Shown piece after piece: positions 53,025 through 64,000 of a DNA stretch of 64,000 nucleotides. The notes below the pieces were generated by a model. That model searched no databases, was not told where the DNA came from, and saw only the letters and a list, made by a program, of their open reading frames with translations. The translations under genes were made by a program, and so were the position numbers. The stretch comes from Actinoplanes sp. SE50/110 (GTDB lineage Bacteria > Actinomycetota > Actinomycetes > Mycobacteriales > Micromonosporaceae): positions 1,068,501-1,132,500 of the forward strand of contig NZ_LT827010.1 of NCBI RefSeq assembly GCF_900119315.1. Reading direction: 5' to 3'. Each line of letters opens with the position of its first letter. The first letter of the stretch is position 1.

Positions 53025-53403
53025 GGGGGTGACTGGTTTCGACTTCGTACGTGGAGACAGGGGAAGCGAGCCGAGGAAGCCGACGTCGTCTCGAGAATCG
53101 GTCGTCGGAAACTTATAAGCGCCAACTCTAAGTTTGACGCTGACCAGTACGCTCTCGCCGCCTGAGGCAAGTAGCGTGGTCTGTCGGTCTGGGAGCGCCT
53201 CCGTCCCAGCTGCCGGCATAAGCTAGGAGGCTGGCCAACCGGTCCCGGTCACGGGGACCGCGCGGCGAGATTAATCAGTGACTGGGCCCGTCGTCCGAAC
53301 TTGCTCACGTGAGTCGGAGGGCCGAGTAGGGACATAGTGAGCTGCGCTCGGAGAAGCCCTGACAAAACAACGAAGGACCCGGGTTCGATTCCCGGCACCT
53401 CCA
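53025..53403 (+). ncRNA. ssrA: Transfer-messenger RNA
   Basis: The 5' GGGGGTG (53025-53031) pairs with the 3' CACCTCC (53396-53402), forming the acceptor stem. GACTGGTTTCGAC is the conserved 5' domain, and GGTTCGATTCC (53382-53392) the T-arm. The tag reading frame at 53121-53165 encodes ANSKFDADQYALAA followed by TGA, with the LAA degradation end. CCA is not fully encoded. It rescues ribosomes with SmpB. An integrated element abuts the 3' end. Confidence 0.96.
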
Positions 53404-55048
53404 CAAGTGGAGGCTTACTTGAACCCGCGAGAGCGGGTGACGGTTCACCCGCAGCGGCGGCGCCCATGGCGCCGCCGCTGTCGTTTCGGACCTCGTTGAC
53501 CAGCGGAAATACAAGATCTGACAGCTCGTCAGCGGCGACATATGGGCCGTCGTCGTCGCTGTCGAAGTAAATCTTCGCGAAGAAGGCCTGATCGAGTGCT
53601 CTCCGGCCCTGCTGTCCGGCCCGGCGGTACAACTCCTGCGGATCGGCGAGCAAGCCGAGGAGGTAGAGCATCGTCTCGGCGGCCTCGTCGAGTCGCGGAG
53701 CGTCTGAGTCGTTGAGCTGCCGGGCGAGCCGGTCCCGCTCGTCCCGGACCTTCCGGAGCCGTGCCGCGATCTTGTCCTGCGGCCAGTCGGGATCACCGAC
53801 GAGGTCCAGAAAACGATCTTCCTGCCGATCTAGCGTGGCGAGCTGATCTTTAACCTGGGTACGCAGCTCGGCGCTCATGCCAGCCGACTCGGCTAGCAGC
53901 TCACCGACCCGGCTGGTGAGGTTGTCGCGCAGGTCGGCAGGCAGCGCGATGGTGGCGTAGTTGTCGATGACGGCCGCCTCCACCCTGGCGATTGGCAGGT
54001 AGGGCAGGTCGCAGGCGTGCTGCTGCCGTCCGCGGCAGAAGTAGTAGAAGTGCAGGTCGCCGGTGTGGCTCTTACCGCGCATGACCATGAGCCGCCGTTT
54101 GCATCTGTGACACCAGACGACGCCTTTGAGGTAGTGGTTGTGCGTGCGCTCCCGGACCCCACCTGCCCGTCGGGATTCCAGCATCTGCTGTACGCGATCG
54201 AAGACCTCGGGGGAGACCAGCGGCTCGTGTCGCCCCTGGTATTCAACCCCGCGGAGCGAGACCAACCCGAGGTAGTACCGGTCGCGGAGCAGGTTGCCGA
54301 GCGAGTTCAGCGAGATCGAGGTACCGATCGGGAAGCGCTTGGTCGGCCTGGTGCGCAGGCCCGCATCGCTCAAGGCCGCGATCAACGCGTGGAATCCGTA
54401 CGTCCCGGTGGCGTACAGCTCGAACGCCATCCGGACCAGCGGGCCGCGCACCGGGTCGACGGCAACCGTGCGAACCTCTCGGCCCTCGAAGGTCTCGCGG
54501 ACGTTGAGGTAACCGATCGGAGCCCGGCCGACCGAGCCACCCCGGATGATCTTCTGACCCATCTTGTACGCGATGTCCGCTCCGGAGGCGCGGGACTGGT
54601 ATTCGTTGACCCCGTCCAGCACCGTGGCGACGAGGTCACCGATCGCTGAGTCCTCGGTGTAGTCCATGACCGAGATCAGCGTGACGCCCGCGCTGCGGAG
54701 GTCCCGCTTGGTGATCGCCGCGTCGATGCTGTTCCGGTGCAGCCGGGACCGGGCGTAGACGAGCACGTAGTCGACGCTCTTCTCGGCCTTGAGCCGAGCC
54801 ATCATCTCCCGGAAGACCGGTCGGCCGTCCACGGTCGTCGCGGAGCGGCCGGGCTCGACGAACTCGGCGACGATCTCAGCGCCCAGCTCGGCGGCGCGCC
54901 GCTGGATGGCCGACCGCTGGGCGGGGAGCGAGATGCCTTCGGGGTCGTAGTCGGTGTTGACCTGCCCGGCCGACGAGACGCGCAGGTAGCTGAATGCTCG
55001 CTTGTGCGTGCTCGCCGGCCGGTCGTGCTGGCGCGGAATCTGCGCCAT
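53249..55048 (-). CDS. Large serine integrase; frame runs into antisense of ssrA
   Basis: 599 residues. The resolvase domain starts RAFSYLRVSSAGQV (nucleophile Ser25), with YARSRLHRNS and DYTEDSAIGDL. The recombinase domain is about 175-290, a zinc ribbon (WCHRCKRRL and a later Cys pair) about 325-360, and a coiled coil about 395-440. Residues from about 549 on (VEVPGIEPGSF to the TGA at 53249) are encoded by the complement of ssrA, so the C-terminus is host-derived. Start ATG 55048 with GAGGAGG upstream. It excises or integrates the element at ssrA. Confidence 0.92.
   Translation of the reverse strand: MAQIPRQHDRPASTHKRAFSYLRVSSAGQVNTDYDPEGISLPAQRSAIQRRAAELGAEIVAEFVEPGRSATTVDGRPVFREMMARLKAEKSVDYVLVYARSRLHRNSIDAAITKRDLRSAGVTLISVMDYTEDSAIGDLVATVLDGVNEYQSRASGADIAYKMGQKIIRGGSVGRAPIGYLNVRETFEGREVRTVAVDPVRGPLVRMAFELYATGTYGFHALIAALSDAGLRTRPTKRFPIGTSISLNSLGNLLRDRYYLGLVSLRGVEYQGRHEPLVSPEVFDRVQQMLESRRAGGVRERTHNHYLKGVVWCHRCKRRLMVMRGKSHTGDLHFYYFCRGRQQHACDLPYLPIARVEAAVIDNYATIALPADLRDNLTSRVGELLAESAGMSAELRTQVKDQLATLDRQEDRFLDLVGDPDWPQDKIAARLRKVRDERDRLARQLNDSDAPRLDEAAETMLYLLGLLADPQELYRRAGQQGRRALDQAFFAKIYFDSDDDGPYVAADELSDLVFPLVNEVRNDSGGAMGAAAAGEPSPALAGSSKPPLVEVPGIEPGSFVVLSGLLRAQLTMSLLGPPTHVSKFGRRAQSLINLAARSP
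53398..53413. other. Candidate left attachment site at the ssrA 3' end
   Basis: CCTCCAC (53398-53404), AA, GTGGAGG (53407-53413) is a perfect inverted repeat around a dinucleotide, centred two bases past the end of tmRNA. Serine integrases cross over at a central dinucleotide within imperfect inverted repeats. The exact crossover point is inferred. Confidence 0.45.
53423..53480. terminator. Cluster of hairpins between ssrA and the integrase
   Basis: ACCCGC (53423-53428)/GCGGGT (53433-53438) is a 6-bp stem, competing with GCGGGTGA (53433-53440)/TCACCCGC (53445-53452). A further perfect 13-bp stem is CAGCGGCGGCGCC (53452-53464)/GGCGCCGCCGCTG (53468-53480). They could terminate ssrA from one side and the integrase transcript from the other. 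Confidence 0.5.
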
Positions 55049-55060
55049 CTCGGTTCCTCC

Positions 55061-55180
55061 TCAGTCGTGGATCATCTCCTCGGCGATCGCGACGAGGACT
55101 CGCGCGAGGATTTCTGGATCGATGCGGATCTCACGTACGGGCCGATGTCGGCGCTTCCGGCGGGGCTCGCGCCGCTTCAT
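55061..55180 (-). CDS. 39-residue basic protein before the integrase
   Basis: The frame begins MKRREPRRKRRHRPVREI and ends VLVAIAEEMIHD. The N-terminal half is very Arg-rich, the C-terminal half an amphipathic helix. Its stop is 12 bp before the integrase ATG, with the integrase ribosome-binding site between. Small proteins in this position sometimes act as recombination directionality factors or integrase partners; here that is inference. It is too short for usual gene finders. Confidence 0.6.
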   Translation of the reverse strand: MKRREPRRKRRHRPVREIRIDPEILARVLVAIAEEMIHD

Positions 55181-55246
55181 CCGTCCGTCGTCCGTCCGTG
55201 CCCGTAGCTGCGCAGACGCGCGCGCGGGAACGGACGTCCGCGCGGA

Positions 55247-56980
55247 CTATCCACCGTTTGGCAGTCGCCAGCGTCCACGGCTGACCTGCGTGGCGTTGGC
55301 TTGCAGGCGGTCGTAGATCCATGTGCGCCTCATTCCGGTCATTCGCATGAGATCGGGGACGGACAGGCCGTGCTCGGGTGCCTCGCTGAGCGCCGCCCAG
55401 AGGACTTTCTCGGGGTCGGCCTCATCTACTTCGTCGTGCAGCGCGTCAGCTTCGTCGTGCAGCGCGTCGGCGGACAGGTGGTCCAGGACCGGGCGATCTG
55501 CTGCGTATCGCTCGACCGTGGCTCGGACGTCGTCGTCGGTCACCAGGTAGGCGCGGGCTCGGCGTGGGTGGTTGAAGCCCTCGGCGGAGACGAGGAATTT
55601 GCCGGGTGCGTCCAGGTCGTGCGCATGCCACCCGGCGGTGACCATGCCCTGACCGAGGATGAGATCGGTGTCCCGACGTTCCCGGACGCGCAGGCAGACC
55701 CGCACGTCCATCTGAGAACGGATGGCGCCCTTGCCCATGGCTTGCTGAGTTGGACGCTGGGTCGCCGCGAGCAGGGTCTCAGCGACTGCGCGGCCACGAC
55801 GGGCGATCGAGTCCGCGTACTCGACGGCTGCGGGCGACTGCTCGGCAAGCTCCGCGTACTCGTCTACGACGATGACCAGCGCGGGCTTGCGCTCGGTGGG
55901 AATCCAGAGCCGTGACGCGGACTCTGCCATCGCACGAGCACGTGCGTCGAGCACCCTGACCGCGTCCCGCAACATCGTCTCCGCTGCGGCTGGGGTGGTG
56001 GCCAGCCGGGCGAGGCAGGGCGCCCATGGCTGTAGCTCCATGCCGCCCTTGAGATCGATACCCCAGAGCACCACATCGGGGCACGCGACCAGGTTGCCGA
56101 TTATGACGTTGAGAACTCCGCTCTTGCCAGCGCCCGCGATGCCGCCGACGAGGACGTGCCGGCGCAACATCGGCACCGCCACGTCGGTCGCGTCCTCGAA
56201 CACGCCGAGGGGGATCGGATCGGCTACCGATCTTGCGGCCGGGCCGCGCCATGGGACGGCGTTGGCGTGCGGATCCTCGGCAAGCACCCGCATGACGAAC
56301 CGACCGGCGTGAGCCGGGTCGGCCTCGACTCGGACCGCTCCGGGCCGGGTGCCGAGTCCGGATTCGATCGCGGGTACCTGGGCGATGACGTCCGCCACGG
56401 TCTGACCGCCTCGCAGCGTCATCCGGGCGCGCCATCCCCACACGTCCACCGCCGCCGACAGCACCCGGGAACCGGCGAGCCCGATCTGTTCGGCCAGATT
56501 GGGCCAGGCCTGGATCGTGCGGTCGACCTTCACCCGTGCCCGGCGTCGTCGGTGGCGCCACCACGGGGTCCCGCACGCGAACATGGCGACCAGGAGGACC
56601 GATTGCAGGTGTGCGTGGCCCGGTCCGAGCGCCGTTGCGGCGGCGAGCCAGACACCGGCAACCGCAGTAGTGATCGCGGCGTAGGCACGTTCCTCGGCCC
56701 TGGTGGCACCCCACGGCGCCCCTCGGAGTGCTGCCCGGAGAGTCGCCGCCCCGGTGCCGGCAAGTACCCACCAGCATGCTCCTGGTTGCGCTGAATGGAG
56801 CCAGACGGCCACTAGGTCGAAGACGACGGCGACCGTGGCGGGGGCGAGTTCAGAACGGTAGCGGTGGGCGAGCCGGCCGATACCGGCGAGGATCGCCGAC
56901 AACCAGGACTCGTCCGAGACCAGAAGCAGTGGTTGCCCGTGACGACGCCAGCGGCGGTGCCGCCGCCCGTACGCCCTCAT
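55247..56980 (-). CDS. FtsK/SpoIIIE-type DNA translocase (TraB-like)
   Basis: 577 residues. Two to four N-terminal hydrophobic segments (about 45-140) precede the motor domain. Walker A is VGGIAGAGKSG, Walker B VIVVDEYAEL, followed by RRGRAVAETLLAATQRPTQQA. A C-terminal winged helix (about 525-577) resembles the FtsK gamma/TraB DNA-recognition domain. Actinomycete TraB pumps double-stranded DNA between mycelia. The ATG overlaps the upstream gene's stop (ATGA). Confidence 0.9.
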   Translation of the reverse strand: MRAYGRRHRRWRRHGQPLLLVSDESWLSAILAGIGRLAHRYRSELAPATVAVVFDLVAVWLHSAQPGACWWVLAGTGAATLRAALRGAPWGATRAEERAYAAITTAVAGVWLAAATALGPGHAHLQSVLLVAMFACGTPWWRHRRRRARVKVDRTIQAWPNLAEQIGLAGSRVLSAAVDVWGWRARMTLRGGQTVADVIAQVPAIESGLGTRPGAVRVEADPAHAGRFVMRVLAEDPHANAVPWRGPAARSVADPIPLGVFEDATDVAVPMLRRHVLVGGIAGAGKSGVLNVIIGNLVACPDVVLWGIDLKGGMELQPWAPCLARLATTPAAAETMLRDAVRVLDARARAMAESASRLWIPTERKPALVIVVDEYAELAEQSPAAVEYADSIARRGRAVAETLLAATQRPTQQAMGKGAIRSQMDVRVCLRVRERRDTDLILGQGMVTAGWHAHDLDAPGKFLVSAEGFNHPRRARAYLVTDDDVRATVERYAADRPVLDHLSADALHDEADALHDEVDEADPEKVLWAALSEAPEHGLSVPDLMRMTGMRRTWIYDRLQANATQVSRGRWRLPNGG

Positions 56981-57285
56981 CGCGCTTCCCTCTGCGCGGC
57001 CACTTCGTCGCGTACGTAGAAGAGTGGATCTTCTTCCCCGTCCGCCTGGGCGGAGAGGGCCGCGCGAGCAGCGGCGAGCAGATTGGCGTGCTCGATGCGA
57101 GTCCAGGCGAGCAGTCTGCGCAGCCGTTCCACCTCGGCGAGCACGAGCGGCAGGTCGGCTACGGCGGTCCAGATGTCGAGTCCGGTGCGCCTGTCGAGCG
57201 CGGTTTTCAGGTGTTTCCAGATGGCCTCCTCGTCGAGGACGGGTCGCGGGACGTTGCTCATGGGGTCGATCGCGTCTCCTTCCAT
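56977..57285 (-). CDS. 102-residue helical protein of the transfer operon
   Basis: Translates as a soluble alpha-helical protein (KHLKTALDRRTGLDIWTAVADLPLVLAEVERLRRLLAWTR in outline) with an acidic centre (AQADGEEDPLFYVRDEV). No family recognised. ATG 57285 overlaps the preceding stop (TGATG); ATG 57261 is the alternative. The tight coupling to traB suggests a transfer-associated role. Confidence 0.72.
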   Translation of the reverse strand: MEGDAIDPMSNVPRPVLDEEAIWKHLKTALDRRTGLDIWTAVADLPLVLAEVERLRRLLAWTRIEHANLLAAARAALSAQADGEEDPLFYVRDEVAAQREAR

Positions 57286-57479
57286 CAGAGCTGGGCCTTG
57301 GCGATGATCCGAACGAGGCTGTGCAGGGCGTCCCCGATGTTCGGGCCGATCGAGGACGCGGCGAGCAGATAGCCGAAGACAGCGCAGATCGCCGCTTGCC
57401 AGAGCGGCAGGCCGGCGAACCGCCAGAGCAGGTAGACGAAGACGGCGAGCAGGAGCACGGCGGAGACGGTCACGGTCAT
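57285..57479 (-). CDS. Small two-helix membrane protein
   Basis: 64 residues. Two hydrophobic helices (VSAVLLLAVFVYLLWRF and LWQAAICAVFGYLLAAS) with a short tail. Size and position recall the Spd-type spread proteins of actinomycete conjugative elements, though no similarity can be asserted. ATG 57479 overlaps the upstream stop (ATGA). Confidence 0.7.
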   Translation of the reverse strand: MTVTVSAVLLLAVFVYLLWRFAGLPLWQAAICAVFGYLLAASSIGPNIGDALHSLVRIIAKAQL

Positions 57480-57661
57480 GCGGGGCGCCGCCCGTCCTTG
57501 CCCCGGCCGCTGGCCTTCCGGCCCGGGCCGGTGCGCCGGGCGAGGTTGGCGTGGCGCCGCTGCCAGCGGCTCCGGGCGGAGCACTTGCAGCACTGGTTGG
57601 GGTGGTCGGCGTCGAGCTGGGCGCCGCAGGTGCAGGTGGGCTCGTTGGCGGGGGTGGGCAT
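57476..57661 (-). CDS. Small zinc-ribbon protein, first gene of the tra operon
   Basis: 61 residues. CTCGAQLDADHPNQCCKCSARSRWQRRH in outline has two CXC/CX2C pairs and a basic tail (RTGPGRKASGRGKDGRR). Start ATG 57661 has AAAGGAGG upstream, the strongest ribosome-binding site of the operon. It is directly downstream of a 29-bp palindromic operator. Confidence 0.75.
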   Translation of the reverse strand: MPTPANEPTCTCGAQLDADHPNQCCKCSARSRWQRRHANLARRTGPGRKASGRGKDGRRPA

Positions 57662-57706
57662 CTGATGCCTCCTTTCGTGCGAAGCCGTGCCATCCGAACC
57701 TCCTAT

Positions 57707-57735
57707 CTAATGAACATGTTGTACATGTTCATTAG
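57707..57735. promoter_or_regulatory. 29-bp perfect palindromic operator of the tra operon
   Basis: CTAATGAACATG (57707-57718) and CATGTTCATTAG (57724-57735) are perfect 12-bp arms around TTGTA. It lies 45 bp upstream of the tra operon and about 170 bp before the divergent XRE gene. The element's tandem GntR protein is the most likely ligand. Confidence 0.75.
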
Positions 57736-57906
57736 AAGCGTCAAGGAGATGCGAACGGGTGGGCTTCCGGTGGGTCCGGCGCTCTTGCGCCGATGCCAAC
57801 GAGCTTGCGACGGATCAGCGGGACGTGATCACTACGTAGCTGGACGTATGCAAGATGTCTGTCCTAAAGTGAGCGTCTTGTCGAGACGTCCTAGTTTGAG
57901 AAGACG

Positions 57907-58641
57907 ATGCCGAACGATCGCCTGCGCACCGCCCTCCTCGAACGGGGAGTAACCCCGGCCGATCTCGCCGAGGAACTGAAGGTCGACCCGAAGAGCGTCG
58001 AACGATGGATCTCCGGCCGGACGCCTTACCGTCGCCACCGCTACGCGGTCGCCGCGAAACTCGGAGTCGACGAGGCTTATCTCTGGCCGGACGCGCTGTC
58101 ACGCAGCCAGGTCGCAGACGCTTCAGAGAGCGAGATCGTCAACATCTACCCGCACCGCTGGGCTGTCCCGTCCGAAATGTGGCGGAACTTCTTCGACACG
58201 GCTGAGGCCGAGATCGGTGTCTTGGCCTACGGCGGGCTGTTCCTCTCGGAGGACGCCGGCGTACGCAAAGTTTTTCGAGAGAAAGCCGATGCCGGCGTGC
58301 TGGTGCGGATCCTGCTCGGCGATCCGAACAGCGAATCGGTCGCCCAGCGTGGAGCGGATGAAGGCGTAGACGACGCCATGGCCGCGAAGATCCGCAATGC
58401 CCTGGTGCTGTACCGGCCGTTGCGGAACCTCGACGGCATCGAGTTCCGGCTACACGACACCGTGCTCTACAACTCGATCTACCGCGCTGACGATCAGGTC
58501 CTGGTCAACACGCATATCTACGGCTTCCCTGCGGCAGAGGCCCCCGTTCTCCACCTGCGCAAGGTCGCCGGTGGCACCATGGTCAGCAGCTACCTGGACA
58601 GCTTCGAGCGCGTCTGGGACGGCGCGACCCCGTTGGAATGA
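57907..58641 (+). CDS. XRE/DUF5919 regulator, copy 1
   Basis: 244 residues. An HTH (about 5-60: LAEELKVDPKSVERWISGRTPYRRHR) precedes a DUF5919 PLD-like domain (about 85-240) with IGVLAYGGLFLSEDAGV, VRILLGDPNSE, VAQRGADEGV and LHDTVLYNSIYRADDQVLVNTH. The PLD HKD motif is not canonical, so it is more likely a ligand sensor than a nuclease. The ATG at 57907 follows GAGAAG. A Nudix gene is coupled by ATGA overlap. A paralogue lies at 61075. Confidence 0.85.
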   Translation: MPNDRLRTALLERGVTPADLAEELKVDPKSVERWISGRTPYRRHRYAVAAKLGVDEAYLWPDALSRSQVADASESEIVNIYPHRWAVPSEMWRNFFDTAEAEIGVLAYGGLFLSEDAGVRKVFREKADAGVLVRILLGDPNSESVAQRGADEGVDDAMAAKIRNALVLYRPLRNLDGIEFRLHDTVLYNSIYRADDQVLVNTHIYGFPAAEAPVLHLRKVAGGTMVSSYLDSFERVWDGATPLE

Positions 58642-59129
58642 GGTCATCGGTCATGTCACGCCGTATCGACTACTTCGATGATCCCGAAGCGCCCGCCGCG
58701 AACTCGATCGTCCCGTCCGTCAACGTCGTGGTGACCGACGACCGGGGTCGACTTCTGTTGATACACCGCACGGACAACGACAACTGGGCGTTGCCGGGTG
58801 GTGCGATGGACTTCGGCGAGTCGCTGCCCGAGGCCGCGATCCGGGAGACGGTGGAGGAGACCGGGATCAAGGTCGAGATCACCGGACTCGTCGGCATCTA
58901 CACCGATCCTCGGCACATCATCCTCTACACCAGCGACAACGAGGCGCGTCAAGAGTTCTCCGTGGTCTTCACCGCCCGCGCTGTCAGCGGAGAGCCCACG
59001 ACCAGCTCGGAGTCCCGCGAGGTGGAGTGGGTGGAGCCGGACGCCATTCCCGGTCTGACGATGCACCGGTCGATGCGGATGCGCATCGACCGGTACCTGG
59101 CGCAGGAGGAGCAGCCGTACCTTGGCTGA
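58638..59129 (+). CDS. Nudix hydrolase of the mobile element
   Basis: 163 residues. The Nudix box is GGAMDFGESLPEAAIRETVEETG (in outline). Related Nudix proteins occur on actinomycete elements such as pSAM2, where one (Pif) limits redundant transfer; this role is not shown here. ATG 58638 overlaps the regulator stop; ATG 58653 (MSRRIDYFDD) is an alternative. Confidence 0.88.
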   Translation: MRSSVMSRRIDYFDDPEAPAANSIVPSVNVVVTDDRGRLLLIHRTDNDNWALPGGAMDFGESLPEAAIRETVEETGIKVEITGLVGIYTDPRHIILYTSDNEARQEFSVVFTARAVSGEPTTSSESREVEWVEPDAIPGLTMHRSMRMRIDRYLAQEEQPYLG

Positions 59130-59586
59130 CGGAGGATGGATCGGCGACGCTGCCGACAGCTTCTCGGCCGTCGGCACCGTAGGCGCGTTCCTGGTCGGTT
59201 TTCTGTTGCTCCGTAAGGAGCAGCGACGGGAAGCGGGGCGGTCCGACGACGAGCGGCGGGCTCAAGCCGCGAAGATCAGCGCTTGGGTCGAGCTGCACCG
59301 CAAGGCGGATGGCACTCGTGAGCTGGCCTTTCATATCCACAACGCCAGTGACATGCCGATCTATGAGGTTGAGCTGCCGCTGCCCAGCCCGGACGGCCCG
59401 GAGGTCACCGAGTTCGTCGGCCTGGTGCCGCCGGGCCAGACCATCCGGCGGCCGGCGCCCGCAGACTGGCTGCGCTCCTATGTCGAACCGGAGCCGATCC
59501 AGATCGAGTTTCAGGACAGCGCGGGGCGGCGCTGGACACGTGATGAGCAGGGCACCCTTGCGCAGGCGGATAAACCTGCTGGCTAA
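59122..59586 (+). CDS. Single-span membrane protein
   Basis: 154 residues. One membrane helix (FSAVGTVGAFLVGFLLL, about 15-32) is followed by a basic linker and a beta-rich domain (HIHNASDMPIYEVELPLPSPDG, with the VPPGQTIRRP segment). This topology is common among uncharacterised actinobacterial proteins. TTG 59122 overlaps the Nudix stop and has GGAGGAGCAG upstream. Confidence 0.72.
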   Translation: MADGGWIGDAADSFSAVGTVGAFLVGFLLLRKEQRREAGRSDDERRAQAAKISAWVELHRKADGTRELAFHIHNASDMPIYEVELPLPSPDGPEVTEFVGLVPPGQTIRRPAPADWLRSYVEPEPIQIEFQDSAGRRWTRDEQGTLAQADKPAG

Positions 59587-60137
59587 TCGGCTTGGAAGCC
59601 GGGCATGCCGGTAATGACCCGCACCGACTGAACGATGCGTGGGCTGACTTCAAGGATGGAGTCCGCGACGATGCTTCCCGGGGCGTATCGCGAGGCGATC
59701 TCCTTGAGACGCTTTTCCACGTCTACGGGGTCGCCGTCTGGGCTCGTGGTCATGTCGCAGTACACCAGCGCATCGGCCATCAGCCCGTTCACCGCAGGGA
59801 ACTCCTCGGCGAGCTCCGTGGCGAGCCCGCGGCGGCCGGCCTCGACGATCGCGTAGGAGTGGTGGGCGACAAGGCGGCAGATCGTCTCGTCGGCTTCTGC
59901 GACGTCCCGCAGATACCGCGCGCCGTCGAGGGCGTGGGAGCCGCTGTGAACGAGGTCCGGGGCGTAGCCGATGTCGTGCAACCATGCGGCGCACACGACC
60001 GTGTCAGCGTCGTCTCCGAGCAGGTGGGCGATCGATTCAGCCTTGCGACCGACGCCCTGCGAATGTGCCCAGCGGCGCGGCAACGTATCGACTAGAAGCT
60101 TTTCCGCCAGCTCACGCGCCCACGAGACGTCTCCCAC
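59583..60137 (-). CDS. HD-domain phosphohydrolase
   Basis: 184 residues. WAHSQGV (His), AAWLHDIGYAP (HD) and LVAHHSYAI match the HD metal-site order. It probably hydrolyses a nucleotide or phosphoester. GTG 60137 is only 10 bp after the gntR stop, so the two are one operon. It overlaps the convergent membrane-protein gene by 4 bp. Confidence 0.82.
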   Translation of the reverse strand: MGDVSWARELAEKLLVDTLPRRWAHSQGVGRKAESIAHLLGDDADTVVCAAWLHDIGYAPDLVHSGSHALDGARYLRDVAEADETICRLVAHHSYAIVEAGRRGLATELAEEFPAVNGLMADALVYCDMTTSPDGDPVDVEKRLKEIASRYAPGSIVADSILEVSPRIVQSVRVITGMPGFQAD

Positions 60138-60147
60138 AGGTCAGAGA

Positions 60148-60606
60148 CTATCGCCCTAGAACGAAACGGCCTCTTCCGTGAATCGACTCGACGAGGCCGG
60201 CGCCTTCTAGTTCGGCTAGCGCGTGCCGGACCGTTCCTCGTGCGACCCCGTACCGGTCGGCCAGCGCAGATTCGCTCGGCAGAGCGTCGCCGAGAGCTAG
60301 CTCGCCGGACTCGATGAGAGCGCGGAGTTCGGCTGCCACGCTGCGGTATTGCGGCATGGCGCTATGGCTCGCCTCGCTGTCGTCGACGACGATCCGCCCA
60401 CGGCCGGGCTGGGCGACGAGGAGACTTTCTGCTGCGAGTTCGTCTAGGGCGCGTCGGAGGGTGTTGCGAGATACGCCGTACTGGCTGCACAAAGTGGCTT
60501 CGGACGGAAGCGCGGAGCCAGGAGGAAACTCGCCCTCGGCGATCCGGGCGCGAATGGCCGCGGCGATGCTCTTGTACGCACCCCAAGCTGTCGTCCGTGG
60601 TGCCAA
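60148..60606 (-). CDS. Tandem GntR regulator (two DNA-binding domains, no effector domain)
   Basis: 152 residues. Two complete GntR winged helices occur in tandem: residues about 8-75 (YKSIAAAIRARIAEGEFPPG, SEATLCSQYGVSRNTLRRAL) and about 86-150 (YRSVAAELRALIESGELALG, SESALADRYGVARGTVRHAL). Normal GntR proteins have one such domain plus a ligand-binding domain. The TTG at 60606 has GGGAGGA upstream. It is likely the KorSA-like master repressor of the element. Confidence 0.9.
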   Translation of the reverse strand: MAPRTTAWGAYKSIAAAIRARIAEGEFPPGSALPSEATLCSQYGVSRNTLRRALDELAAESLLVAQPGRGRIVVDDSEASHSAMPQYRSVAAELRALIESGELALGDALPSESALADRYGVARGTVRHALAELEGAGLVESIHGRGRFVLGR

Positions 60607-60659
60607 CGGTGTCCGTCCTCCCGGCCCTCTTTACTGAGCCGAGCGTAGTGGTCACCGCT

Positions 60660-60899
60660 TCAGGTGCGGGGGAGCGTCACGCCAGCCTCAATCGCGCTGG
60701 TCAGCAGTGCCGCGAGGTCGTTTGCAACCGTGCAGGTGACGGCACCGATCCGGACACCGGGTGCCCCGGAACTGTCCCATCCGCTGCGGAGATCCTGGAA
60801 GGCCGTACCGACGTCGAAGCCGGCCTCTTCGAGGGCAACCGCTAGGCGATCGGCGGCCTGTTGCGCGGCTGTGGCCGGGGCGAGGCTGTCGTCGGCCAC
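60660..60899 (-). CDS. Small 79-residue protein upstream of the tandem gntR
   Basis: MADDSLAPATAAQQAADRL starts an acidic, helical protein with a central segment FDVGTAFQDLRSGW and ends AIEAGVTLPRT. The GTG at 60899 has GGAGGG 6 nt upstream; ATG 60929 is the alternative. Function unknown. It lies 53 bp before the gntR gene and may be co-transcribed. Confidence 0.68.
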   Translation of the reverse strand: MADDSLAPATAAQQAADRLAVALEEAGFDVGTAFQDLRSGWDSSGAPGVRIGAVTCTVANDLAALLTSAIEAGVTLPRT

Positions 60900-61008
60900 T
60901 GTCGGCCCTCCCTCTTGTTCGGTCGTCATGGGTGCCGAGCCGGGCAGCCGGCCAGACAGATCTGCATGCTCGATCCAGGATCTCCGGACGATCACAGACT
61001 GTGAACCT

Positions 61009-61037
61009 CGTCTTGGGACGTCTTGGGACTTCTTGGC
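61009..61037. promoter_or_regulatory. 10-bp direct repeats upstream of the second XRE/DUF5919 gene
   Basis: CGTCTTGGGA at 61009-61018 and 61019-61028, then CTTCTTGGC at 61029-61037, in helical register. CGTCTTG also occurs at 57874-57880 before copy 1. A likely operator for these regulators. Confidence 0.5.
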
Positions 61038-61074
61038 TATGCTGGCCGGAACTCCACTCCAGCGGAGGGACGTG

Positions 61075-61851
61075 ATGAAGCAACCTCTGTCTCGGGCGCT
61101 GCGCGCCACCGGACTTGATGCCGTGGACGTGGCTGCGCGGCTCAGCGTCGATCCCAAGACCGTCGAGCGGTGGCTGACGGGCAGGTTGCCGTACCCGCGG
61201 CACCGCGCGGCACTGGCTGGGCTCACAGGCTGGGCGGAACCCGATCTCTGGCCCGGCATCGACGCTCGGGAGCAGGCCCCCCCTGATACCGGCGACATCC
61301 TTATGACGTACGCGCAGCGCTGCTCCGTGCCGCCGGATGCCTGGCGAAGGCTGTTCGCTGGTGCCGAGCAGGAGATCGGCGTACTTGCTTACAGCGGTCT
61401 TTTTCTCGCGGAGGACGCAGGCGCCGTGGCGATACTGCGCGACAAGGCCCGAGCCGGCGTGCGGGTGCGTATCGCGCTTGGTGATGTCAACGGCGTCCAG
61501 GTGGCCCAGCGCGGAGTCGAAGAGCAGATCGGGGCGATAATGCCGGCCCGGATCAACAACGCTTTGGCCCTGCTCCGACCGCTGATCGAAGAAGCCGGCG
61601 TGGCGGTTCGGACGCATGACACCGTGCTCTACACCTCGATCTACCGGGCCGATGACCAGTTGATGGTCAACACCCATGCCTACGGGTGCGCCGCATCGCG
61701 GTCGCCCGTCTTGCACCTGCGACGGGCGACCGACGATGGGATCGCGGCCACCTACCTCGACTCGTTCGAGAGGGTGTGGGCGGTGGCTCAGGATCTACAG
61801 GCCCAGCCGACGACGCGGTCGAAGAGGTCGGCCGGTTTAGCGTCTGGCTGA
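61075..61851 (+). CDS. XRE/DUF5919 regulator, copy 2
   Basis: 258 residues. The HTH (VAARLSVDPKTVERWLTGRLPYPRHR) and the PLD-like domain (IGVLAYSGLFLAEDAGAV, VRIALGDVNGVQVAQRGVEEQ, HDTVLYTSIYRADDQLMVNTH) parallel copy 1. The C-terminus carries an extra 25 residues. ATG 61075 has GGAGGG upstream. CGTCTTGGGA repeats lie in its promoter. Its 3' end overlaps the convergent small gene. Confidence 0.85.
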   Translation: MKQPLSRALRATGLDAVDVAARLSVDPKTVERWLTGRLPYPRHRAALAGLTGWAEPDLWPGIDAREQAPPDTGDILMTYAQRCSVPPDAWRRLFAGAEQEIGVLAYSGLFLAEDAGAVAILRDKARAGVRVRIALGDVNGVQVAQRGVEEQIGAIMPARINNALALLRPLIEEAGVAVRTHDTVLYTSIYRADDQLMVNTHAYGCAASRSPVLHLRRATDDGIAATYLDSFERVWAVAQDLQAQPTTRSKRSAGLASG

Positions 61852-62015
61852 TCGACGATGGCGTCGGCCAGGTGAAGGCTGAGGTAGATCATCCGGTTGA
61901 CGCGATCGGTCGTGGCGATGATGTCGTCCTTGGCCGGTTGGCAGGGCCAGAGGGTGCTGCAGTGATGGCATTTCCAGGACGGTCGCTCAGGGACGTGCAG
62001 CACGTGGATGCTCAT
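61788..62015 (-). CDS. Small Cys-rich protein (PSWKCHHCSTLWPC type)
   Basis: 75 residues. PSWKCHHCSTLWPCQPAKD is a recurring actinomycete motif in small proteins near Nudix and XRE genes, with the CX2C and a third Cys. The C-terminus is a helical segment ending FDRVVGWACRS. Function unknown. ATG 62015 is the conservative start; the frame is open to 62405. It overlaps the XRE copy 2 gene by 64 bp. Confidence 0.65.
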   Translation of the reverse strand: MSIHVLHVPERPSWKCHHCSTLWPCQPAKDDIIATTDRVNRMIYLSLHLADAIVDQPDAKPADLFDRVVGWACRS

Positions 62016-62723
62016 TCGGCGCCGCCGTTGCTGCGCCATCGCTGTCCGCGGGTCAATAGCGGCGTGAGCAGGATTGTCGGCATGTCCCAGGACGGACGCT
62101 GACGAACTCTCGGCGTGGAGCCGGCCGTTGCCGTGCTCCGCGTTATGGCCGGTGCCGGCGAACATGTGGCTTGGCAGGGCCAAGTGCTGAGCCCGCAGGT
62201 ACAGCGTGAGCGCCATGGCGCCCACCAGTGGCGTGACGGTCGATGGATGGTTGCTGGGCGGTGCTTCGGCGGTGTCGAGGCCGATGCATGCCGACGCGAG
62301 TGTGGCATCGCTTCCTCCGCAAGCTGGCGAACAAGCAGAGGTCCGGTCGTGCGCTTGTGGGAGCATGCACGACCGGACCCTGGTTGGCGCCGTTGCCACC
62401 CGCACCGCACGGCTTCGGGGCGCCTCGTGACCCCTGGTGCGCAGCTACCTCGGCGTTGCTCACAGCTTCGAATTTCCTGGGCGCTAGCCCAACCGCGCCT
62501 TGTTGGACGTCCGTGGAACTTCTCGCCGTCCCACTCGGCGTCTATACAAACCGCACAGTTCCGAGTAGCAGTTGACGAGCGGCGGGGCACGGCGGACCGA
62601 GCTATGCGGTCACGCCGGGCAGGTCAGTATCGCCGTAGGCAGCGGCACGGTAGCTCATTAGCGGCGCCTGGAGCAGCGAGAGACTGTTGAGCGAGGCGCA
62701 TGCAGGATGTGTTGGTCGACCAG
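62016..62723. other. Low-confidence region before the IS
   Basis: About 700 bp with lower GC than elsewhere. Frames on both strands overlap heavily; the minus frame continuous with the small Cys-rich gene has a moderate third-position GC bias but an unrecognised product. No gene is called here. Confidence 0.5.
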
Positions 62724-62727
62724 CTAG

Positions 62728-64000
62728 TACTCCAGCAGGAGTTCCGTTTCAGGGTTCCGTGAGTGCTTGGCGGGCGTAGTGGCTGGTCCTGGCGGCGGCT
62801 TGATGACGGCGGCGATAGATTGACCAGGCAATGACGTCGACGACGCGTCTGCCGGGTTCGATGACCAGAGCGTGGAACAGCCGGCGGAGTTCGTTGACGG
62901 TGATCACGATCAGGCCGTCCGGGCTCGTGGTGCTGGCCGTGGTCGCGGCGGCGAGAAATGCGTGGGCGGCGATGACCAGGGTGGTCCAGCGGTGCCAGGC
63001 TTTCCAGCGGCGGTGCTGGTGCTGATCCAGTCCGAGTCCGCTTTTGGTTGCTTGGAACGACTCCTCAATGCTCCAGCGTCTTCCGGCGACGGCGACCAGG
63101 TGGTGCAGCGCGACGAGTTGCGGTGACCAGCAGCGGTAGAACGCCAGTTCACCGGTGGTCCGGTTGCGGCGAATCAGTAGCCAGTGATGGCCTTGGTGCT
63201 GGTCAGCTGCGTGCGGCAGGGTGATGAAAGCCCAGTCGTAGTAGCGGTGGCCTTTCGCGCCGTTGCCGGCCGATATCCGCTGCCATGCGTGTTTCGGTAG
63301 TCCGGCGGCGATCTGGTCGGCCCGCTGGACGCCGAGGCCGGTCGGTGCTCGGTGTGAGCAGGCGACCGCGAGGACGTAGCCGAGCTGATGCCGGCGTAGT
63401 GCGGTGGCCAGCTGCGGGTCACCGCCGTAAGCTTCGTCGCCGGCGACCCACCGGCATGGCAGCCCGCCAGCTACTGCGGTCTCGATCAAGCGGCGTGCCA
63501 GCTCCGGTTTCGTAGCGAACGTGACGGCGCCAGGAACCCCTGCCTCTGCCCGTCGCTGAGGGTCGTCGATCCAGGATTTCGGCAGGTAGAGAGCAACGTC
63601 GACCAGGCTGTGCCCGAGTGGGGAAGCGTATGACAGGTGCACCGCGAGCTGGCAGTTCTCGATCTTCCCGGCGGTTCCGGAGTACTGCCGTTGCACGCCG
63701 ACAGTGTGGGTGCCTTTCTTAAGATCGCCGGTCTCGTCGACCAGCAGCACCCCGTCCGGGTGCCCGAGACGGGCCGCCACGAAGTCGCGCACATCGGCCC
63801 GCACCAGGGCGTCGTCCCAACTGGCACGGCTGATCAGATCCTGCATCCCGCCCGGACCGTCGTCGCCGGCGTGCTCGGCAATCGTCCAGCAGTTCTTCGT
63901 CGGCAACGGTGCGAGCAGCCCGGCAACGAAGTCACGGACCCGGCGCCGGGGTTCGGGTCGGGCGAAACGTGCCTCGATCGTGTTCATCAGCTCGCTGAAC
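62728..64000 (-). mobile_element. IS701-family insertion sequence (left part only seen to window end)
   Basis: A transposase gene and one end are visible. CTAG (62724-62727) directly precedes TACTCCAGCAGGAGTTCC, compatible with the CTAG-like target preference of this family. The other end is beyond the window. Confidence 0.6.
62749..63987 (-). CDS. IS701-family DDE transposase
   Basis: 412 residues, complete. LLVDETGDLKKGTHTVGVQRQYSGTAGKIENCQ (in outline) holds the first catalytic Asp; VAGDEAYGG the second; RWSIEESFQATKSGLGLD carries the Glu. It moves the IS by DDE transposition. It appears intact, starting at ATG 63987. Confidence 0.92.
   Translation of the reverse strand: MNTIEARFARPEPRRRVRDFVAGLLAPLPTKNCWTIAEHAGDDGPGGMQDLISRASWDDALVRADVRDFVAARLGHPDGVLLVDETGDLKKGTHTVGVQRQYSGTAGKIENCQLAVHLSYASPLGHSLVDVALYLPKSWIDDPQRRAEAGVPGAVTFATKPELARRLIETAVAGGLPCRWVAGDEAYGGDPQLATALRRHQLGYVLAVACSHRAPTGLGVQRADQIAAGLPKHAWQRISAGNGAKGHRYYDWAFITLPHAADQHQGHHWLLIRRNRTTGELAFYRCWSPQLVALHHLVAVAGRRWSIEESFQATKSGLGLDQHQHRRWKAWHRWTTLVIAAHAFLAAATTASTTSPDGLIVITVNELRRLFHALVIEPGRRVVDVIAWSIYRRRHQAAARTSHYARQALTEP

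Follow-up and report, generated by a model that had tools for sequence, protein, structure and literature searches.

A 64,000-nucleotide stretch of the Actinoplanes sp. SE50/110 genome (the window; genome positions 1068501-1132500, within one 9,240,166-bp contig) holds part of an integrative element that is inserted at ssrA, the gene for transfer-messenger RNA (tmRNA), and that encodes a large serine integrase (Int). Our analysis indicates that the attachment (att) site of the circular element, attP, very probably lies inside the element's own integrase gene (int), near its 3' end. Integration would swap the native C-terminal tail of the integrase for another end and excision would restore it; the tail itself is presumed to matter. 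The split of the gene, its frame, the orphan tails and the natural intact genes are established at the level of sequence.

The integrase frame in the integrated and circular states

ARAGORN placed ssrA, the integration target, at 53025..53404 on the forward strand, its 3' end forming the host half of attR. Rfam RF00023 covered 53025-53406 (+) with 140.7 bits (E 1e-55), and an ssrA match was present in 60/60 genomes searched, own genome counted. The integrase open reading frame (ORF; 53249..55048, reverse strand) converges on ssrA. In the integrated state it encodes 599 aa; residue 549 (codon 53404-53402) is where it enters ssrA from the 3' end, and its stop codon lies inside the RNA gene, the final 51 codons (residues 549-599) being antisense tmRNA. 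A preliminary description of this DNA had proposed just such a frame, crossing into ssrA for about 51 antisense codons up to a stop at 53249, and ARAGORN, Rfam and the ORF reading bore it out; the peptide VEVPGIEPGSF is likewise antisense to tmRNA, namely to its acceptor 3' strand and T-arm. The Resolvase, Recombinase and Zn_ribbon_recom domains (Pfam PF00239, PF07508 and PF13408, above cut-offs) all fall inside residues 18-363. The protein carries YLRVSS, of which Y19, R21, V22 and S23 are invariant across 53 aligned members; Y-x-R-V-S is what we take to be the motif of the catalytic serine in large serine recombinases.

The far end of the element was found by comparing the own genome with relatives that have an empty-looking ssrA. 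The sequence that follows CCTCCAC in one of these, G010 (GGCATTGCGGCCCCC), recurs in the own genome beyond 1141864 with an att half before it, and attL is thus followed by sequence resembling the ssrA-downstream DNA of that empty relative. Alignment with G010 and the distal att defined a recombination core, ACCTCCAC (53397..53404), common to attR, attL and the empty ssrA site, with the distal copy at genome 1141857-1141864, outside the window. The element occupies 53405..64000 of the window and extends to an outer attL that ends at genome 1141864 (window-equivalent 73364), giving a size of 19,960 bp; to an inner attL, which ends at genome 1139089, it measures 17,185 bp. The P' arm of attR (53407..53425) reads GTGGAGG followed by CTTACTTGAACC; the distal attL carries the inverted repeat of the latter, GGTTCAAGTAAG. 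When attR and attL were joined, the reconstructed attP had its dyad centre inside CCTCCAC, GGTTCAAGTAAG and CTTACTTGAACC as arms, and a best dyad of 21/36 positions. A long tRNA-type 3' repeat of ssrA was found neither in the own genome (at <=3 mismatches) nor elsewhere in the window. From the att structure, we infer that the window integrase would catalyse recombination between attP and the host site, attB.

We observed that the int frame is in phase through the core in both the attR and the attL readings. The integrated gene ends ...SSKPPLVEV/PGIEPGSF... (the slash marks the exchange), whereas the circle would read ...SSKPPLVEV/VASYLNLIDQVRHLQDAVSDRGPTDRP via the outer attL or VEV/LTSYLNLNDRLANIRRMLRTVVHNSEQHAAPHAQHQ via the inner one. 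Counted from the core, the circle encodes 30 codons (outer attL) or 39 (inner attL), compared with 51 in the integrated state. The part of the ORF that exists only upon integration runs from residue 552 to the stop and is antisense to ssrA (53249..53396, reverse strand). The earlier proposal that the circle would encode a different protein end, and that integration state would change the encoded length, is upheld by these readings, and natural uninterrupted integrases (see below) support the principle. Its swap point needed adjusting: V549-E550-V551 are identical in both states, as the core is shared, and the ends differ from residue 552. The reconstructed circle junction does not encode residues 549-599 as they stand in the integrated form.

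The preliminary description had further noted a CCTCCAC-AA-GTGGAGG palindrome at the end of ssrA. It is present at 53398-53413, its centre 1.5 bases outside the ARAGORN end; however, the second arm is kept in only 4/16 occupied loci (the window, L013, L014 and L074, the last three with spacer CA) and lost in 12/16, so that only the closest relatives retain the whole palindrome. It was rejected as the att dyad, the attP dyad being centred elsewhere. As a separate observation, the attL-type halves at genome 1139089 and 1141864 (L010/L011, outside the window) are 2,775 bp apart, and behind each lies a copy of the terminator region found downstream of ssrA. In G020, four att halves occur less than 14 kb from ssrA. 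The repeated terminator copies are not accounted for by tandem integration on its own.

Antisense ends, orphan tails and intact genes in relatives

A protein-database search, in which 8000 candidates were scored, yielded 1720 homologues at E <= 1e-30, and the ends of the 120 listed were read. Among these, 91 of the 101 homologues of at least 540 aa have the T-arm antisense motif in the same frame, the motif being defined loosely as [GR][IFLV]E[PL] beyond residue 480. The ten without it include P0022, which continues into an attL-type tail, and P0117, whose end resembles another frame. The targets of antisense-ended integrases are tmRNA and tRNA-Ala, -Lys, -Leu and -Met, and their tail lengths vary; whichever tRNA or tmRNA is targeted, int reads without a stop into the core, mostly in one phase. 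Antisense-reading ends are a family trait that also occurs at tRNA genes and is not ssrA-specific.

We then read 30 same-genus ssrA loci, the window's own counted. Nine (window included) have an integrase match above residue 520, eight of which cross the core in the same frame; the ninth is unreadable owing to a run of N. The integrase was found in 8/67 genus genomes at E <= 1e-60. Eight integrase relatives are in named genomes, six of them in Actinoplanes, Paractinoplanes and Dactylosporangium and two in distant metagenome genomes at 23-26% identity. The att-half pattern occurred at 14 sites in 9/67 genus genomes, with the same 10-nt gap in 14/14 (6-14 allowed) and an open int frame in 14/14; judged by eye, most of the 14 adjoin terminator-like sequence of the post-ssrA kind. 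Eleven elements or loci, 17 to 40 kb of DNA each, were inspected for attL, and the pattern gave candidates in the own element, G022, G031, G380 and G451. The last two share one syntenic element, in which 17,885 bp separate a tRNA-Ala integrase from an orphan tail of the same strand and phase; the frame reads SSNTSK/VELRGIEPLTFSMRTRRATNCATAP when integrated and SSNTSK/VEVGGAYSNTKDQVSALETLR... in the circle.

An order-wide scan with the att pattern gave matches in 13/397 genomes. In one family, f15, which appears to be Pseudonocardiaceae-like, twelve orphan frames of 149-152 aa start exactly at the core GTGGAGG. These tails hold helix-turn-helix (HTH) motifs, with two such regions in the better-scoring ones, and mean column identity is 81% across 11 aligned tails. 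For ten of them, the ratio of nonsynonymous to synonymous differences (pN/pS) was 0.55 over codons 9-45 and 0.24 over codons 45-90 in frame, whereas the other frames gave 1.03-2.18. Left out of this count were L090 and L096, which nearly duplicate L089 and L095; L092, whose tail is decayed; L081 and L093, with 100-aa tails of a different kind; and L082, L083 and L085, which have no tail. By this measure, the HTH-bearing orphan tails are under purifying selection. Across the order, the tail family occupies 36 places in 27/397 genomes, most without an internal stop; the longest open frame over these places is 307 aa, and none is fused to an integrase there.

Codons 9-22 of 15 Actinoplanes tails (the 14 plus the inner one of G022), which lie past the att arm, scored a mean BLOSUM of 0.99 against the f15 tails (shuffles: mean -8.65, standard deviation 1.62, 0/5000 reaching it) and 4.6 against P0022 (shuffles -8.28, standard deviation 1.79, 0/5000); the compared tails are mutually related, so that the scores are not independent trials. 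The two other frames scored -7.1 to -11.4, close to the shuffles. On these scores, the Actinoplanes, f15 and P0022 tails are homologous.

Next, an orphan tail was used as a query against longer proteins, which gave 15 matches. Three are complete joined integrases with Resolvase, Recombinase, zinc ribbon and HTH (P0121 from Haloechinothrix salitolerans, P0129 and P0134), and P0127, P0125 and P0124 are partial joined proteins with an integrase part. P0127 shares 78% identity with P0072 for 245 residues, as far as the core (...LAGQSASKAAMV); past the core, P0127 reads the tail DLGGTYYNTKPQVEALEALLRKLPD, while P0072 reads antisense tmRNA, EVPGIEPGSF. P0121 belongs to another integrase group, 24% identical to the window integrase. 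P0121-type copies number 46, in 41 of 390 f15 genomes at E <= 1e-180; two are full-length with a tail, and in the other 44 the match stops at residues 519-575. Of 24 copies that were read, 21 continue into T-arm antisense, two into the tail and one elsewhere; with six order-wide loci added, the counts become 27/30, 2/30 and 1/30. The P0121-type copies of G707 (93% identical) and G621 (90%) part ways directly after RTMTNLV. The two intact copies (G588 and G762) are on contigs of 70 and 453 kb.

Several related loci were seen in passing. At L144-L173, related P0121-type integrases sit at tmRNA, tRNA-Ala, -Lys, -Leu and -Met, and the intact copies carry differing tail variants; the tail or the core may influence target choice. 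Scattered orphan HTH tails occur at five places in G451 and four in G380, and multiple orphan tails per genome suggest that many earlier integrations have lost their integrase ends. At L094 (1342-1950), 165 bp resembling the L103 integrase end (89.7%) run straight on, in frame, into a tail near a transposase-like stretch; this looks like a remnant of an attP-type junction. At L096 (19-807 and 1501-1950), an orphan tail has a divergent serine recombinase (~25% identical) as its neighbour; the two are on opposite strands, and the locus was rejected as a joined gene for that reason.

A phage or plasmid home was considered and rejected. The orphan tail had no match among plasmids at E 1e-5 and matched four phage records only, 28.6% identical over 61% of the tail; int relatives in phages or plasmids were at most 29.2% identical, two IMG/VR scans gave no match, and a search with the P0022 tail region returned P0022 itself only.

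A number of observations weigh against an attP within int, or against a tail that matters in this lineage. The window's own element has two attL copies, and the own tail of int could be either. No joined gene was found among the closest relatives of the window integrase, the nearest, P0022, being 64% identical among the matches listed. No tRNA gene lies in the 40 kb around either intact P0121-type copy, so that by context these could be free, on a plasmid or otherwise integrated. Of the 11 elements or loci inspected, G007, G009 and G069 gave only degenerate attL candidates in a relaxed scan, three (G073, G035 and G016) gave no convincing attL, and the join in G031 is unreadable because of an assembly gap; G035 and G016 hold an integrase fragment only, and their relaxed-scan matches are chance-like. 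The pN/pS of the Actinoplanes tails was 0.96 (all 14) or 0.85 (the nine best), and five of the 15 were very short or had a score under -5 with either the f15 tails or P0022; several tails are short or decayed. Constraint on the tail in the window's own lineage is not shown by these sequences.

Possible consequences of the tail exchange

With attP inside int, the int frame of the circle would run through attP into the native tail, of 30 or 39 codons in the window element; in the Pseudonocardiaceae-like relatives, the circle-encoded tail would be ~150 codons long with two HTH motifs. Integration would swap the encoded C-terminus for an antisense host-RNA end and leave the native tail as an orphan at attL, and excision would rebuild the whole gene. 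The tail may be a DNA-binding or regulatory module, in which case the state of the DNA would set the Int isoform; the full-length form would most likely favour integration, and the integrated form would be quieted or redirected. Whether this amounts to a switch across a large set of actinobacterial serine integrases is close to an even call, leaning slightly towards no: full-length Int, often with a double HTH, would be made from the circle only and drive integration, which would amputate the tail and leave altered or no activity, and directionality would reside partly in the DNA state of int. Under such a switch, the tail would be regained by excision or supplied by a tandem neighbour. Since a different target gene gives a different antisense tail, that tail looks incidental, and the part that carries meaning would be the native one lost on integration.

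A serious though less probable alternative is that the swap is real in the DNA but inconsequential, with both isoforms working alike and the catalytic and DNA-binding domains complete without the tail. The position of the three Pfam domains, which end by residue 363, fits this, as do the Actinoplanes tails, whose lengths vary widely, from 13 codons upward, and whose pN/pS is near 1. However, the HTH tails are under purifying selection though the flanks upstream of the orphans are unrelated, and members with 44-70% identity to P0022 have kept the linker frame free of stops into the core.

It is unlikely that the orphan tail is instead an independent HTH gene, for a regulator or directionality factor, that starts at the core GTG, is expressed from the integrated element and is fused to int in the circle only incidentally. 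The core does start with GTG, the twelve f15 orphans are open, and most of the 36 tail places are stop-free. However, the 400-bp upstream flanks of the twelve orphans are similar in 1/66 pairs only (L089/L090); 65/66 pairs are dissimilar, and therefore no conserved promoter or ribosome site is present. Joined genes, moreover, occur in integrases that share 24% and 35% identity with the window protein.

We consider it very improbable that the antisense ssrA peptide is itself a selected, functional C-terminus of Int. The same-frame T-arm motif is common among relatives, as counted above, but the RNA gene accounts for its conservation, and the peptide changes in sequence with the target and varies in length. 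Least credible of all is a plain accident in which an integrase lost its stop codon and ran into ssrA by chance: in 29/30 genus loci read, empty sites included, the int frame has no stop for 37-61 codons on the antisense strand of ssrA, so that any unstopped frame gains a tail, but one junction and phase recur throughout the family at many target genes, and the natural joined genes, which run on into a conserved tail, contradict it.

Element content, known systems and significance

A 14-pair hairpin followed by CGTTTC lies inside the int frame just past ssrA (53451..53481, forward strand; fold of 96 nt, z -4.24). Hairpins of at least 13 pairs, differing in sequence, were found in 9/12 occupied loci tested (L014 excluded owing to N), and 6/16 loci without the integrase arm also have one, as a terminator would predict. 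A scan for T-run terminators did not call the 53451-53481 hairpin, and a promoter scan was likewise uninformative. The hairpin probably replaces the native ssrA terminator, which integration would have displaced by 20 kb. The tmRNA tag peptides are strongly unlike among close relatives (window 53025-53404 and L051-L056; for example ANSKFDADQYALAA, AKVNARADYQLAA and ADTNRADFALAA).

Elsewhere in the element, 55247..56980 (reverse strand) encodes an FtsK/SpoIIIE-type protein (Pfam PF01580, E 5.8e-11), similar to the transfer proteins of actinomycete integrative and conjugative elements (AICEs). A helix-turn-helix protein at 57907..58641 (forward strand; Pfam HTH_19/HTH_3, below gathering cut-offs) is a possible regulator, and a DDE transposase (PF13546) spans 62749-64000 and runs on to L010:12122. 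Of the AICE gene set, Int and FtsK are present; no replication protein was found among 10 further proteins scanned, which make up part of the element's ORFs.

Arrangements in which integration alters a gene are familiar from mycobacteriophages, where integration-dependent immunity places attP within the repressor gene, a further parallel to the window element.

The closest described case is the Dehalococcoides dsiB gene (2011, PMC3146451), an ssrA serine recombinase whose 3' end overlaps att and whose stop lies beyond the island or inside ssrA. As far as the descriptions can be compared, dsiB and the window integrase both read into ssrA without a stop before the island boundary. The available text of that report suggests, as a proposal without a test, that dsiB is perhaps fully functional only on the circle or beside an island that supplies a 3' fragment. 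A T-loop insertion in ssrA, a CcrB-like phylogeny and a DsiA partner characterise the dsiB type. Unlike dsiB, which inserts at the ssrA T-loop, the window element has its core ACCTCCAC at the ssrA 3' end; and that text describes no native tail or joined gene, whereas here we find a tail, orphans, intact genes and tRNA targets.

The archaeal suicidal integrases of SSV1, pTN3 and pT26-2 also have att inside the integrase gene, which is split on integration (PMC8371274). In the part of that source available to us, self-disrupting recombinases are called exclusive to archaea and the split halves are described as inactive. Those enzymes are tyrosine recombinases, whereas Pfam found serine recombinase domains only in the window integrase; here a bacterial serine integrase loses its C-terminal tail alone, and the Pfam domains all stay on one half. 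In the Ralstonia filamentous phage phiRSS0, attP lies in ORF13 and integration alters the C-terminus, from 156 to 130 aa (PMC3816273, in its accessible text). ORF13 may be regulatory, and the phage integrates at dif as by host XerCD; in the window the gene is the element's own integrase. An account of AICEs (PMC3218068) notes, in the portion available, that serine recombinases at tRNA genes are rare. Its elements share with the window's an integrase adjoining att, an FtsK-type transfer protein and actinobacterial hosts, and its main text, as available, is free of the words overlap, C-terminal and antisense. We found no description of the tail, the orphans or the intact/split pairs in searches of an open-access library or in passages of PMC6035254, PMC9513070 and PMC12884075; subscription journals and preprints were outside the scope of this search.

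How self-reversal is prevented is a central question in the biology and use of serine integrases. With the substrate site inside the enzyme's own gene, two DNA states encode two proteins, both readable from genomes and directly comparable. The database copies read here are mostly of the integrated form, with an end antisense to tRNA or tmRNA (91/101 among the 120 listed), and integrases of this family taken from genomes as tools would thus be cloned without their natural tail. Overall, our analysis carries the idea of the self-splitting integrase beyond archaea, into bacteria and into the serine family, which is unrelated.
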